A stretch of DNA of 64,000 bases from assembly GCA_947302655.1 (NCBI GenBank), contig CAMYVW010000002.1, positions 1 to 64,000 of the forward strand, in the 5' to 3' direction. Origin of the DNA: an uncultured Mycoplasmatota bacterium (GTDB taxonomy: Bacteria; Bacillota_I; Bacilli_A; RF39; UBA660). Positions 43,287 through 52,522 of this stretch are shown here, piece by piece. The stretch's first letter is position 1. Every line of letters begins with the position of its first letter. The notes under the pieces are model-generated. The model was not told where the DNA came from. It saw only the letters and a program-made list of their open reading frames with translations, and ran no database searches. The position numbers were made by a program, and so were the translations under genes.

Positions 43287-45011
43287 ATGACTGAAATAAA
43301 GACTTTAAAATTTAACAATGATACGCCATCACAATTAAAACATATAAAGTATGGTACTGATTGGCCTGTTGTTTACATTATCAATAATAATGAAGAGGCT
43401 TATGTTGGTGAAACAACTGATGCTAGTATAAGAACTAATCAACATTTAGCAAATAATGTAAGAAGAGGTTTAGATAAGATAAATATAATTGGTGATGATA
43501 TGTTTAACAAATCATCCATTCTTGATTTAGAGTCATTTCTTATTAAGTATATGTCTGCTGATAACAGATTTAAACTTCAAAATGGTAATGGCGGTTTGCA
43601 AAACCATAATTATTATCAAAGACAATTGTATACAGAAAAGTTTAGAGAAATATGGTTACAATTAAAAAATAAAGGCTTAGTAAAACATGATTTAAGAATG
43701 ATAGAAAATTCTGATTTGTTTAAATATTCACCATATAAATCTTTAACAATTGATCAATATATGATTGTAAATAATATATTATCTGATTTGGCAAATTTAG
43801 TTAATAAAAGTGAACCAGGCACTTTTGTTGTTGAGGGTGGAGCTGGAACTGGAAAAACTATTCTTGGTATTTATATGCTTAAACTTTTAATGCAAGCTAA
43901 AGACGAAAAACAAATTGAAATTGAGGAAGATCAAGTTGAACAAAATCTTTCTGAAATATTAAAAATTAATGATGCAATAGATGACTTAAAAATAGGGATA
44001 GTTATTCCTATGGATAATTTAAGGTCAACTTTAAAAAGAGTATTTAGGCACATAAAAGGATTAAGCGCAAATATGGTATTAAGCCCTCATGATGTTGGTA
44101 AATCAGATGAAATATATGATTTGTTAATAGTTGATGAAGCACATAGATTAAGAAGGAGAAAAAATCTTACTCAATATGGAACATTTGATGAAAATAATAG
44201 AAGAATGAATTTGGGAAATGATGGTACTGAGTTGGATTGGATACTTCTTAAAAGTAAATATCAAATATTCTTTTATGATGAAGGTCAATCTATTAAACCT
44301 ACAGATATAAGAAAAGATAGTTTTAGGAAATTAATGCTGAGAAAAAATTACCATGAATATACTTTAACAGCACAGCTTAGATGTATTAAAGGTGGAGAAG
44401 AATATGTTGATTATATTAAACAAATATTTAGTAATAATCCACCCAAGAAAAAAATTAAATTTAAGGATTATGATTTAAAATTATTTGATGATGTTAAAAT
44501 TATGACTGATACCATTATTCATAAGGATTCTGAATATGGTTTGTGTAGAAATATAGCTGGTTATGCTTGGGAATGGAAGAGCAAAGGGAAAAAGAATCCA
44601 ATGCAATCGCATTCAAAAGATGTTAAAAAGAATATTGAGGATGGAGTATTTGATCTAGTAATAAATGGTAACAAGTATATATGGAATTCAAAACCTACTG
44701 ACTGGATAAATTCTCCAAACTCTTTGAATGAAATTGGGAGCATACATACAACTCAAGGATTTGATTTAAACTATACTGGATTAATTATAGGTAATGAAAT
44801 TAAATATGATTTACAAAAAAGCAAGTTTATTATTGATAGAAAATCATACTTTGATTCAAAAGGAAAAGCTGATACTACTGATGAAGAATTATTAGGATAT
44901 TTGCTAAATATATATCGTACTATGATGTTAAGGGGTATGCTTGGTACTTATATATATGTGTGTGATCCAGGATTAAGAGAATATCTTAGTAGATTTATTG
45001 ATATTGTTTAA
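43287..45011 (+). CDS. GIY-YIG nuclease fused to DUF2075 / SF1-type NTPase
   Basis: 'PVVYIINNNEEAYVGETTDASIRTNQHL' GIY-YIG; Walker A 'VVEGGAGTGKTILGIYM'; Walker B 'LLIVDEAHRLRRR'; 'IHTTQGFDLNYTGLIIG' helicase-type motif. Confidence 0.88.
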   Translation: MTEIKTLKFNNDTPSQLKHIKYGTDWPVVYIINNNEEAYVGETTDASIRTNQHLANNVRRGLDKINIIGDDMFNKSSILDLESFLIKYMSADNRFKLQNGNGGLQNHNYYQRQLYTEKFREIWLQLKNKGLVKHDLRMIENSDLFKYSPYKSLTIDQYMIVNNILSDLANLVNKSEPGTFVVEGGAGTGKTILGIYMLKLLMQAKDEKQIEIEEDQVEQNLSEILKINDAIDDLKIGIVIPMDNLRSTLKRVFRHIKGLSANMVLSPHDVGKSDEIYDLLIVDEAHRLRRRKNLTQYGTFDENNRRMNLGNDGTELDWILLKSKYQIFFYDEGQSIKPTDIRKDSFRKLMLRKNYHEYTLTAQLRCIKGGEEYVDYIKQIFSNNPPKKKIKFKDYDLKLFDDVKIMTDTIIHKDSEYGLCRNIAGYAWEWKSKGKKNPMQSHSKDVKKNIEDGVFDLVINGNKYIWNSKPTDWINSPNSLNEIGSIHTTQGFDLNYTGLIIGNEIKYDLQKSKFIIDRKSYFDSKGKADTTDEELLGYLLNIYRTMMLRGMLGTYIYVCDPGLREYLSRFIDIV

Positions 45012-45634: not shown

Positions 45635-45746
45635 TGTTTATAAAATTTCTTGATTAAATTTTTCTATATGATATATTGATATAAATAATAAGAGTGTATT
45701 TCATTATTAAGATGGAATATGCTCTTTTTTATTGGGAGGAGTTAAA

Positions 45747-46277
45747 ATGAGTAAATATATTAAAGATAGTATTGATTTTCAAAGTGACTCAGGAAAATAT
45801 GTTTTGTTGAAACCAACGTCTATATTTTATGAAAACATAAAAGATATTTTATCTGAGAATGAGTTGATTGAATCCTATGTTTCTGCTGTAAAGTGTTTAG
45901 CAAACTATATTAAAGGTAGGTTAAAACCTAATATTTCTATTCTTGACTCGAGTATGCCTACAACGCCCTTTTTATTCTTGTGTAGACATACAATTGAAAT
46001 AATAATCAAAAGAAAACTTGAACTAAATAATATAGATATAATGAATATTCATCTACTGAAAGATTTATGGGATATTCTTTCTCAAAGTTGTAAAGAAGAT
46101 TTATCATCATATAATGAGTTGATTTTAACTTTTGATAAAATGGATTATAATGGTCAATGTTTTAGGTATGCTAAAGATACTAAGGGTCAGTATTTTGAGA
46201 ATAAGCCGAAATTTATTGATGTTATTCAGATATATAATGATATATTACTATTAAAGAAGACTTTACTAGAAAACTAA
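45747..46277 (+). CDS. Hypothetical protein
   Basis: ORF with 'gggaggag' SD. Confidence 0.6.
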   Translation: MSKYIKDSIDFQSDSGKYVLLKPTSIFYENIKDILSENELIESYVSAVKCLANYIKGRLKPNISILDSSMPTTPFLFLCRHTIEIIIKRKLELNNIDIMNIHLLKDLWDILSQSCKEDLSSYNELILTFDKMDYNGQCFRYAKDTKGQYFENKPKFIDVIQIYNDILLLKKTLLEN

Positions 46278-46339
46278 CTCACATGCTTAAGCATTCGTTC
46301 TTTAATAAATCTCTATACCTATAGAGATTTTTTAACAGA
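46275..46339 (+). repeat. 3'-trailer/terminator element, copy 1
   Basis: taactcacatgcttaagcattcgttctttaataAATCTCTATAcctATAGAGATTttttaa; homologous to 49007-49069. Confidence 0.6.
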
Positions 46340-46405: not shown

Positions 46406-47152
46406 ATGAAAGAAGTATTATATAACACTTTTACTAATAAATTTTTTATAGCTGCATGTATATTTGCTATTGTAGCTTATATTATTAATAAATACTTTCT
46501 TGCAAAAATACTTGGTTGGTTTGGTGAACACTGGGCTAAAGGAGAACTTAAAAAACTTCCTAAAGATAAATATAAAGTAATAAATAATTTATTTATAAAT
46601 ATTAATAATAAAACTCATCAAATAGATCATGTAGTAGTATCTATATATGGAATATTTGTTATAGAAACTAAACAATATAATGGATATATAACTGGTAGTA
46701 AGTATGATTATAAATGGATAAGACATACAAGAGGTAAAAGATATGAATATACTAATCCTATTAGACAAAACTATGGTCATGTTAAATCTATAGCTGAACT
46801 ACTTAATATAGATGAAAGTAAATTATATAACTTAGTATATATACCTAGTAAACATGTTAAACTTAATATAAAACATAATGGAGAACTATTAAGACCAGGT
46901 TATTTATATAAAACTATTATAGAAACTACAGAAGAGAAACTTCCTAATTATGAAGAGATATATAATAAATTATTAAGTTATAATATAACTGATAAAAATG
47001 CTGTTAAAGCACACATTACTAATATAAGAAATGAACATATAAATGATACTAATAGATGCCCTAAATGTGGTGGAGAGTTAGTACTAAGACAAGGACAGTA
47101 TGGATCATTTTATGGATGTTCAAACTATCCTAAATGTAAATATACTAAATAG
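46406..47152 (+). CDS. NERD-domain protein with C-terminal topoisomerase-type zinc finger
   Basis: 'FININNKTHQIDHVVVSIYGIFVIETKQYNGYITG' NERD core; 'CPKCGGELVLRQGQYGSFYGCSNYPKCKYTK'. Confidence 0.9.
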   Translation: MKEVLYNTFTNKFFIAACIFAIVAYIINKYFLAKILGWFGEHWAKGELKKLPKDKYKVINNLFININNKTHQIDHVVVSIYGIFVIETKQYNGYITGSKYDYKWIRHTRGKRYEYTNPIRQNYGHVKSIAELLNIDESKLYNLVYIPSKHVKLNIKHNGELLRPGYLYKTIIETTEEKLPNYEEIYNKLLSYNITDKNAVKAHITNIRNEHINDTNRCPKCGGELVLRQGQYGSFYGCSNYPKCKYTK

Positions 47153-47215
47153 TATTCGGTACATACTTTATGTATGTACTTTTATTTTTTAACAAATTAT
47201 GATAGTATATTTCAC

Positions 47216-47359
47216 TAGTAAGAGAAAATTGCTATAGCATGTGCGTTTCGCCATGGTTAGAGGGACGTACTGTTTAACAGGTCCTAAACTATATACTATA
47301 ATAAAAACAGTTAAATATATATTGCTATATATTTAGACAATGTCGAATTTCTCTTACTA
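47216..47359 (+). ncRNA. Candidate retron msr-msd ncRNA
   Basis: a1 tagtaagagaaaatt (47216-47230) pairs with a2 aatttctcttacta (47346-47359); msr-like hairpins with UUU-type loops (CATGtGCG-TTT-CGCCATG; GGACgtaCTGT-TTA-ACAGGTCC); msd-like stem TAAATATATA-ttgc-TATATATTTA; directly upstream of retron RT. Confidence 0.8.
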
Positions 47360-47371
47360 AAGAGGTGATTA

Positions 47372-49009
47372 ATGTTGCAAAATAAAACTTTATGTAATAT
47401 TCAAACTATAGATGAATTATGCAACATTTTAGATATATCAAAAAATCAGTTATTTTATATTGTTTATAAGAAAAAGAACAAGTATAGAACTTTTAATATA
47501 CCAAAGAAAAATGGAAAAATGAGAACGATTTTTGCGCCTGATTATGACTTAAGAAATTTTCAAAAAAAAATTAAAAATATACTTGAAGATTCTTATAATT
47601 TTCCAGATTATATTCATGGTTTTGTTAAAGGTAAAAGTAATTCGACTAATGCAGATGTTCATGTTCATAAAAGATTTGTTTTAAACATAGATATAGAAGA
47701 TTTTTTTCCTACAATACACTTTGGTAGAGTTTGTGGTTTATTTCAAAATAGACCCTTTTATTGTAGTAAAGTTGTATCATACTATTTAGCAAAACTTATT
47801 TGTTGTGATGGCTTTTTACCACAAGGTTCTCCTTGTTCACCAGTTATTTCAAATATTATTTGCTTTACCATGGATAAAGAAATATTTCGATTATGCAAAA
47901 GAAATAGATGTGTTTATACTAGATATGCTGATGACATAACAATATCATCTAATAGAGAGATATTTCCTAAAGAAATTGCGTTTAAACGTGATAATGAAGT
48001 TGCTATTTCTGATGAGCTAATAAAAATAATTAGTGGTGGTTTTAAAAACGGATTTAAAGTGAATACTTATAAATTGAATTTTTCAAAACGAATGCAAAGA
48101 CACGAAGTAACAGGTATAATTGTTAATGAAAAGAAAAATTTAAAGAAAAAATTTGTAAAAAAAGTGCGCGCTATACTTTATGAAATTAACAAAAATGGAT
48201 TTTTATCAGCATATAATAAAACTTTTAATTCTGTTTGTAAGGACGAACAATACGCATTTAAGAAACTAAAAAGATATCTGTCTGGGAAATTAAATTATTA
48301 TAGAATGGTAAGAGGCAATAATAATTTAATGTTTTTAAAATATGCGAGTGAGTTTAATAAAACTTTTGATTGTGAACAATTTAATGTTGATGATATCAAA
48401 AATTTAATGGAATATAATGTTGAACGATGTATGATTATTTCAGATGAAAATATTAGTAATCAGGGCTCTGCATTCAAACTTGATAATGATAAAGTATATA
48501 CCTCAACTCATGTATTAATCAATTCTACCGTATTGCCTGAATTTATTGATAATGAAAAAACCGAAGAATATTTTAAACAATTTCCATTAAGTTTACCTAA
48601 CAAGAATTCATTATTTTTAAATATATTCGATAAGGAAAAGAATTTCAAAGATAACGTTAGGTATACTATCAAAGAGTCTGATGTTGAAAGCGATATTGTT
48701 AATATAGATAATAAATTAAATATAAAATCATATAAAAAATCTAAGAACAAGTGCAAAATTGGTGATGAAGTAATTCTGGTTGGATATGCTGATTATACTA
48801 GTAAAAGTGATATATATATAATAAAAACTAGAATAATATCTGAAAATGTTTTGTTTGGCAGAAAAATGTTTGTAACTAATGATCATCCACGACATGGAAT
48901 GAGTGGAGGACCGGTTCTGAACTCTAAGAAAGAAGTTGTTGGGATAGTTTATGCAGGTGTTGATGAAGAAGATTACAATGGATCAATGTCTGGATTTATC
49001 CCACTGTAA
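47372..49009 (+). CDS. Retron-type reverse transcriptase fused to trypsin-like serine protease domain
   Basis: 'LNIDIEDFFPTIHFGRV', 'LPQGSPCSPVISNIIC', 'YTRYADDITISS', 'RHEVTGIIVN' RT motifs; C-terminal 'YTSTHVLINS', 'SDIVNIDNKL', 'HGMSGGPVLNSKKEVVGIVYAG' protease motifs. Confidence 0.92.
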   Translation: MLQNKTLCNIQTIDELCNILDISKNQLFYIVYKKKNKYRTFNIPKKNGKMRTIFAPDYDLRNFQKKIKNILEDSYNFPDYIHGFVKGKSNSTNADVHVHKRFVLNIDIEDFFPTIHFGRVCGLFQNRPFYCSKVVSYYLAKLICCDGFLPQGSPCSPVISNIICFTMDKEIFRLCKRNRCVYTRYADDITISSNREIFPKEIAFKRDNEVAISDELIKIISGGFKNGFKVNTYKLNFSKRMQRHEVTGIIVNEKKNLKKKFVKKVRAILYEINKNGFLSAYNKTFNSVCKDEQYAFKKLKRYLSGKLNYYRMVRGNNNLMFLKYASEFNKTFDCEQFNVDDIKNLMEYNVERCMIISDENISNQGSAFKLDNDKVYTSTHVLINSTVLPEFIDNEKTEEYFKQFPLSLPNKNSLFLNIFDKEKNFKDNVRYTIKESDVESDIVNIDNKLNIKSYKKSKNKCKIGDEVILVGYADYTSKSDIYIIKTRIISENVLFGRKMFVTNDHPRHGMSGGPVLNSKKEVVGIVYAGVDEEDYNGSMSGFIPL

Positions 49010-49069
49010 CCCGCAGGCTTAGGCAGCCGGCCTTCTTAAAAATCTCTATAAGTATAGAGATTTTTTTAT
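49007..49069 (+). repeat. 3'-trailer/terminator element, copy 2
   Basis: taacccgcaggcttaggcagccggccttcttaaaAATCTCTATAagTATAGAGATTttttt, homologous to 46275-46339. Confidence 0.6.
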
Positions 49070-49140
49070 ATTATAAACATAAGATTAAAATCTTATATTC
49101 ATATATATGTTATAATAAAAATATATAAGGAAGTTTTAGT

Positions 49141-51443: not shown

Positions 51444-51559
51444 TCACATATCTGATGATATGTGATTATTTATTGTTGACTATATATAAACTTCTTTGTA
51501 AAATTATTTCAACTATATAAAAACAGAATTTAAGTTAATACATCATGGAGGTGACACAA

Positions 51560-52288
51560 ATGAATTCTGAACAAATAATATATATAAATCTTGATGATTC
51601 TGGAAAACTTACTTCAAAAGAAAAAGTATCTTGTTATGGTGGAATAGTGTTCTTGTCAAAAGATGAAAGAGCAAAATTTATTGTTCAATATAGATCGATA
51701 ATTGAACAAATTAGATGTTCATATTGTAAGCACTCAAAAAGATGTAAAAATTTATGCCCTGAAGTAAAGAATCATAATATTAAATCATCACATAAAAGAA
51801 GACTTATAAATCTTACAAAAAAACATATGACTATAGGCTTTGTTATAGATAATAAGAGAATATATAAACATATATTAAATGATAAAGCCTCTAGAGGAAG
51901 ATATTCTGATTATTGTTTAAAATTACTTATTAAAACTTTTGTAAAAAAACTTATAATTAATAAAAGAATAGATCCTTATAAGCCTTTAAAATTAATTATA
52001 GATATAGATCAGCAAACTACAAAAAGTAATGGTTACTATGATTTAAAAAATGGAATATATGAAGAACTAAAACATGGAATATCCAATTTTAATTATGCTA
52101 GAACTTTTAAACCATTACTTTATTCTGATTTGATGATAACTTTAATGTATAAGGATTCTTCCAAGAATTATCTTATTCAAGCATCTGATTTACTTGCAGG
52201 AACTGTTAGAGGTATTGCTTTAAATAACTATCCTAGATATGATGCTTCAAATTATAAAGACTTTAATTTAATAGTATTTTTCCCATAA
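51560..52288 (+). CDS. DUF3800-like (RNase H fold-like) protein
   Basis: N-terminal 'IIYINLDDSGKL', C-terminal 'LIQASDLLAGTVRGIA' pattern typical of DUF3800; SD 'ggaggtg'. Confidence 0.75.
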   Translation: MNSEQIIYINLDDSGKLTSKEKVSCYGGIVFLSKDERAKFIVQYRSIIEQIRCSYCKHSKRCKNLCPEVKNHNIKSSHKRRLINLTKKHMTIGFVIDNKRIYKHILNDKASRGRYSDYCLKLLIKTFVKKLIINKRIDPYKPLKLIIDIDQQTTKSNGYYDLKNGIYEELKHGISNFNYARTFKPLLYSDLMITLMYKDSSKNYLIQASDLLAGTVRGIALNNYPRYDASNYKDFNLIVFFP

Positions 52289-52399
52289 GAAAAGAGCTTC
52301 ATAAGAAGCTCTTATCCCAGTTGGGTCGATGTACTTACAGTACACTTAACAATTATGTCGAGTCCCTACTGTCGACCTGACGAGATTTTCATCTCCGGT
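52288..52399 (-). ncRNA. Candidate small RNA C (minus strand, about 110 nt)
   Basis: Minus-strand TTGACA (52429-52434), 17-nt spacer, TAGTAT (52406-52411); hairpins GAGAT-gaaa-ATCTC, GTCGA...TCGAC, GTACT-gta-AGTAC; terminator AAGAGCTTC-ttat-GAAGCTCTTTTCTT. Confidence 0.65.
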
Positions 52400-52522
52400 A
52401 CTAAAATACTAACAAACAAAATATTGCTTGTCAATAATATTATATAAAAAAATATATAGAAGATGTATGGTAAAAAAAGTAATAACTGTTAATGTGTTAT
52501 AATTTATATAGGTGAGTAAAAT

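Follow-up and report, generated by a model that had tools for sequence, protein, structure and literature searches.

A type XI retron and the very likely template RNA of its RT-protease fusion in an uncultured Mycoplasmatota bacterium

Organization of the locus

The stretch of DNA analyzed here (the window) comprises 64,000 nucleotides of a contig from an uncultured Mycoplasmatota bacterium and contains, on its forward (+) strand, a gene encoding a 545-amino-acid fusion of a reverse transcriptase (RT) and a protease (47372-49009) and, directly upstream of it, a structured leader of 144 nt. The leader is bounded by two arms, a1 (47216-47227, +; TAGTAAGAGAAA) and a2 (47348-47359, +; TTTCTCTTACTA), which are exact reverse complements of one another over 12 nt. 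The start codon (ATG 47372) follows 12 nt past a2, and a GAGGTG ribosome-binding site sits between the two. Retrons are anti-phage elements of bacteria that make a small DNA from their own RNA. The segment 47216-47359 is very likely the msr-msd template RNA of a type XI retron, in which the RT is fused to a protease. Type XI is an already classified kind of retron, and the RT-protease locus at 47216-49009 is a further example of it. The initial annotation had placed a perfect 12-nt inverted repeat around the 144 nt, ending 12 nt before the RT, and had read the order as a1-msr-msd-a2-RT; its coordinates are exact and the order is right.

The RT-protease protein

The best PADLOC match of the fusion protein is RT-Protease_XI (E 1.6e-147, residues 5-534), which is ahead of RT-TIR_XII and RT-Toprim_I-C by a wide margin, and Pfam recognizes RVT_1 and Trypsin_2 (E 1.7e-6). 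Retron RTs are marked by the motifs NAxxH in region X and VTG in region Y (PMC6868368). The RT of the window, a type XI retron RT, has both, NAxxH at residues 93-97 (N93, A94 and H97) and VTG at 246-248, in addition to YADD at 185-188. The trypsin-like domain starts at about residue 365 and carries the triad H380/D441/S511; in profile searches this part of the protein resembles HtrA and Spl proteases of the chymotrypsin fold. The three RT motifs and the triad are invariant in an alignment of seven type XI proteins that spans Bacilli and Proteobacteria: that of the window, two from the same family (L002 and L003) and those of Pseudoalteromonas (L079), Haematobacter (L080), Pseudomonas luteola (L081) and Bacillus arachidis (L086), the last four with classes assigned by PADLOC. 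In the same family, searches at the genome level brought up only two more complete RT-protease genes. A type XI retron is also present on a plasmid of Phaeobacter inhibens (L082), where an IS3-family transposase gene cuts the protease domain short.

The nearest solved structure is that of retron Eco2 (Ec67), found by PDB sequence search with an E value of 2.9e-54; no solved type XI retron structure was among the PDB matches. AlphaFold reached a pLDDT of 34 without an alignment, while the seven-row alignment gave a good model of the RT, with the protease not modelled. Eco2 is also nearest to the RT model by fold (Foldseek, E 4e-24).

Structure of the leader RNA

Two msr hairpins are predicted by RNAfold downstream of a1. 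The first (47238-47256, +) has the form CATG-u-GCG-UUU-CGC-CAUG and the second (about 47262-47285, +) the form GGGAC-gua-CUGU-UUA-ACAG-GUCC, and the latter may overlap the 3' limit of the msd. Their bulged stems of 7 and 9 bp agree with the one to three hairpins with 7-10-bp stems of retrons, just as the 12-bp a1/a2 helix that flanks the msr-msd upstream of the RT falls within the retron range of 8-30 nt. The msd template region, placed by comparison with known retrons, would lie between the msr and a2 (47290-47347, +, limits approximate). It contains a 10-bp stem-loop built of A and T only and closed by a TTGC loop (47312-47335, +; TAAATATATA-TTGC-TATATATTTA). Among 2000 shuffles of the region, 15 reach a stem of 10 bp (p ~0.0075), and the msd stems of retrons span 10-50 bp; the sequence of this one is not conserved. 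The two msr-like hairpins and the TTGC-loop stem that the initial annotation described have thus all been located. Its remark that the predicted msDNA is extremely AT-rich fits the msd part (17% GC), but the AT-richness of the RNA mostly reflects genome composition, as the window has 26% GC, the whole RNA 31% and the msr part 45%. Rfam returned no match to the RNA, either at the gathering threshold or at an E value of 1.

When the 300 nt upstream were shuffled with dinucleotide composition preserved, a perfect repeat of at least 12 nt with its right arm at most 40 nt from the ATG arose in none of 500 shuffles, and the outer stem was likewise matched in none of 400 shuffles in a second test. 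Perfect repeats of at least 12 nt anywhere in these 300 nt occur in 2.2% of shuffles. The segment from a1 to a2 folds with a z score of -4.0. Folding of 47200-47371, which had been suggested as a check, gives a z score of -2.95, and the inner region alone (47228-47347, without a1 and a2) is no more stable than shuffles (z = -0.54). Therefore, the outer a1/a2 stem carries the statistical signal. Perfect hairpins of at least 10 bp are common across the window, many of them terminators, and the repeat and stem might accordingly be taken for chance palindromes of a genome with 26% GC. This explanation has next to no probability given that no shuffle produced a 12-nt repeat so placed and that GC-rich relatives have repeats at the same place.

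Conservation of the RNA in relatives

Type XI relatives possess an inverted repeat at the same site upstream of the RT; its sequence is unrelated from locus to locus and its complementarity is retained. Between type XI loci the a1 arms share 24% identity, which is the random level, and each arm complements its own a2. Since these helices were picked as the best repeats, the evidence is the shuffle test (400 shuffles per locus) and not the count of pairs. Most loci gave p values of at most 0.03, many of them 0/400 or 1/400. The outer stems of L002 (TAAGGGATTT), L079 (GCGAGGCGA), L080 (CACGAGGTCTCCC) and L086 (GGAAAAGTAGGAA) range from 0/400 to 4/400; the stem of L003 (AAGGGATTT) is weaker (15/400) and that of L081 (TTTGGGGC) is weak (33/400). 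Fused RTs of type I-C and of other kinds (L062, L065, L066 and L083-L085) have an equivalent repeat as well, and that of L067 is weaker (22/400). A scan for the longest perfectly matched repeat found no significant outer stem in L004, L006, L007, L064 or L082. The first three of these have arms of 5-6 bp and the arms of the other two contain G-U pairs, the repeat of L082 reaching 19 bp when G-U is included.

Right after a1, the near relatives L002, L003, L004, L006 and L007 have in common TTGCATATCAC and a hairpin core GCG-NNN-CGC, and the window counterpart is TTGCTATAGCATG followed by GCG-UUU-CGC. In an RNA alignment of six near relatives, in which only the msr was aligned, hairpin 1 is paired in 88% of the cells with one two-sided change. 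Its covariation is weak (95/500 shuffles) because there is one compensatory pair and the other pairs are mostly invariant. None of the nearest relatives has a sequence homologous to hairpin 2 or to the msd stem. Covariation had been named in the initial annotation as a check, and loss of a1/a2 complementarity and of the hairpins in homologues with the same RT as what would speak against a retron RNA. Complementarity is kept in the relatives in spite of the divergence of a1, and hairpin 1 is kept in the near ones with little covariation.

The branch guanosine

In retrons, the priming guanosine lies within or directly after a1, usually in the motif TAGC and otherwise in CAGA, CAGC, GAGC or ACGC (PMC6868368). 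In Eco2 it is directly 3' of a1, with 4 nt and then a stem-loop coming after it (PMC12405507). Judged by sequence, G47231 (+ strand, in ATTGC) is most likely the priming guanosine of the window. It stands four bases beyond the end of the perfect a1 and matches the Eco2 geometry, and TTGC also follows a1 in L002, L003, L004, L006 and L007. ATTGC is absent from the listed priming motifs (PMC6868368), making the TTGC context a slightly unusual one for a retron.

The alternative candidate, G47237 (+ strand), sits in TAGC, the canonical and commonest priming motif (PMC6868368), and would leave the RNA a retron RNA with a different branch site. It is unlikely to be the branch point, as it lies 10 nt past a1 at the edge of hairpin 1, whereas described priming guanosines lie inside the a1 stem or immediately past it, and the TAGC is private to the window: near relatives all lack it and keep TTGC directly after a1. 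G47231 is preferred because G47237 has no counterpart in relatives. Thus, among the branch-site candidates after a1 that had been put forward from the window, only G47231 is borne out by conservation.

A different reading of the leader is that it regulates the RT-protease gene in cis, by attenuation or translational control, and is not a template for cDNA. It might draw on the fact that a2 adjoins the ribosome-binding site and that the inner hairpins are unexceptional in the shuffle comparison. However, the known retron set (PMC6868368) is made up of just these features: an outer stem spanning 120-160 nt, which type XI relatives have at the same site, a conserved guanosine past a1, and an RT with NAxxH and VTG. 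The chance that the leader is only such a regulator is remote. The reading as msr-msd template RNA is retained below.

Genomic context

A gene for a NERD nuclease (46406-47152) lies directly upstream of the retron on the same strand. Nuclease-protease pairs are known from other defence systems (PMC12799240), and the NERD nuclease could be a partner of the protease in the manner of the gated MBL nucleases in Hachiman and AVAST. It is very unlikely to be one. An intrinsic terminator found by terminator scan (47158-47190, +; a 9-bp stem and U tract) separates the NERD gene from the retron, and NERD differs from the MBL nuclease of the Hachiman and AVAST pairs. Relatives have other genes at the upstream position: L002 and L003 have restriction-modification genes, L079-L081 unrelated ones, L107 type I restriction genes and L106 DNA methylase-like ones. 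Not being conserved, the NERD gene was rejected as a partner.

The retron is accessory. In G221, a genome of the same genus, a different gene takes the place of the segment matching about 45.8-49.7 kb, and no match to the RT was found in the other same-genus genomes searched. A probable terminator follows the RT-protease gene (49038-49066, +; a 12-bp perfect hairpin and then a T run). Promoter scanning found no prominent promoter upstream of a1; the scan yields as many promoter-like sites as it does in shuffles. Inside the RNA, at 47274-47302, is a strong promoter-like match, TTAACA-17-TATAAT (11/12), and L002 and L003 have TTAACA-17-TATAAT at the equivalent place; the match might serve the RT as an internal promoter or might merely result from the hairpin.

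Other elements of the neighbourhood were observed as well. On the 3' side of the retron (49007-49077) lies CAGGCTTAGGCAGCCGGCCT followed by an AAATCTCTATA..TATAGAGATTTTTT terminator, an element that also stands 3' of two unrelated genes in another genome (G096; L095 complement, G096:C3 at about 734.2 and 735.8 kb) and was not found in the other genera searched. Perhaps it is a cassette boundary. A similar CATGCTTAAGCATTCG with a near-identical terminator is located at 46277-46333, after the gene at 45732-46277 and upstream of the NERD gene and the retron. Further away, a protein with a Schlafen group 3 helicase domain and a weak N-terminal GIY-YIG match is encoded at 43287-45011, and a DUF3800 gene (51545-52288) has at its 3' end a DUF3800-I RNA detected by Rfam (66 bits; 52281-52406, minus strand).

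Proposed mechanism

With the RNA anatomy, the RT and protease motifs and the conservation of the outer stem established, a working model can be proposed that covers msDNA synthesis, the branch site, autoinhibition, the trigger and the substrate. The msr-msd RNA would be transcribed together with the RT-protease gene just downstream, and a1 would pair with a2. The 2'-OH of the guanosine after a1, probably G47231, would then prime cDNA synthesis by the RT domain. Reverse transcription may start at about 47344, the template base next to a2, and run leftwards through the AT-rich stem; the resulting branched msDNA would be short, about 45-80 nt by estimate.

Eco2 forms a self-inhibitory complex of RT, effector and msDNA, the opening of which is ascribed to a phage nuclease (PMC12405507). 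By analogy with this RT-effector fusion, the msDNA-bound protein of the window would be a standing autoinhibited complex, in which the RT and msDNA likely keep the fused protease inactive. Damage to the msDNA by phage, or its processing, could free the C-terminal protease, which would cut a protein and so halt the infected cell. Anti-phage activity of the RT-protease retron is itself predicted from retrons in general.

Comparison with known retron systems

Like other type XI retrons, that of the window is a single-gene RT-protease fusion with the same domain order, a conserved triad and a leader bounded by a1 and a2 upstream of the RT. The identity is about 40% to the nearest relatives found (L002 and L003) and 30-36% to the proteobacterial and Bacillus ones; further differences from known type XI retrons are the TTGC priming context and a very AT-rich msd. 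The literature searched, which lay outside the main retron-type and census papers, contained no account of the RNA of this type. A complete set of RNA and protein from an uncultivated, small-genome lineage of Bacilli, including the conserved outer stem and the conserved candidate branch G, makes type XI testable, in particular whether the fused protease is kept inactive by the msDNA and which protein it cuts.

Retron-Eco2 (Ec67; RT-Toprim, type I-C) likewise has its effector C-terminal to the RT and a branch G directly after a1, followed by a short single strand and a stem-loop, an arrangement that the window would share through its candidate branch G. It differs in that its effector is a Toprim nuclease rather than a protease and its priming motif is CAGA.

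Closer to hand are RT-only retrons of the same family (L102, L103 and L104), with RTs 41-45% identical and an msr core (AATTGCATATCACGnGCGTTTCGCAGTG) close to the msr of L002 and L003. They differ in having no protease, an outer stem of merely 5-6 bp and a gene for a DnaB_C ATPase directly upstream. Together with L105, these loci (in G298, G367, G250 and G852, respectively) have an msr almost identical to that of L002 and L003 and lie directly downstream of the DnaB_C gene. The gene encodes DnaB_C only (PF03796; E ~5e-54 and 6e-52 for the two examined) and occurs in three divergent versions; L103 has an additional gene that by eye is PD-(D/E)XK-like, with no Pfam hit. The DnaB_C-linked RT-only retrons are possibly an undescribed retron architecture. 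It may be suggested, as a tentative idea that is rather doubtful at present, that the msr core and TTGC priming site, a motif absent from the lists of known retron priming sites, form a module common to the protease-fused and the apparently unclassified DnaB_C-linked retrons of this family, in which the effector has been swapped and the RNA kept.
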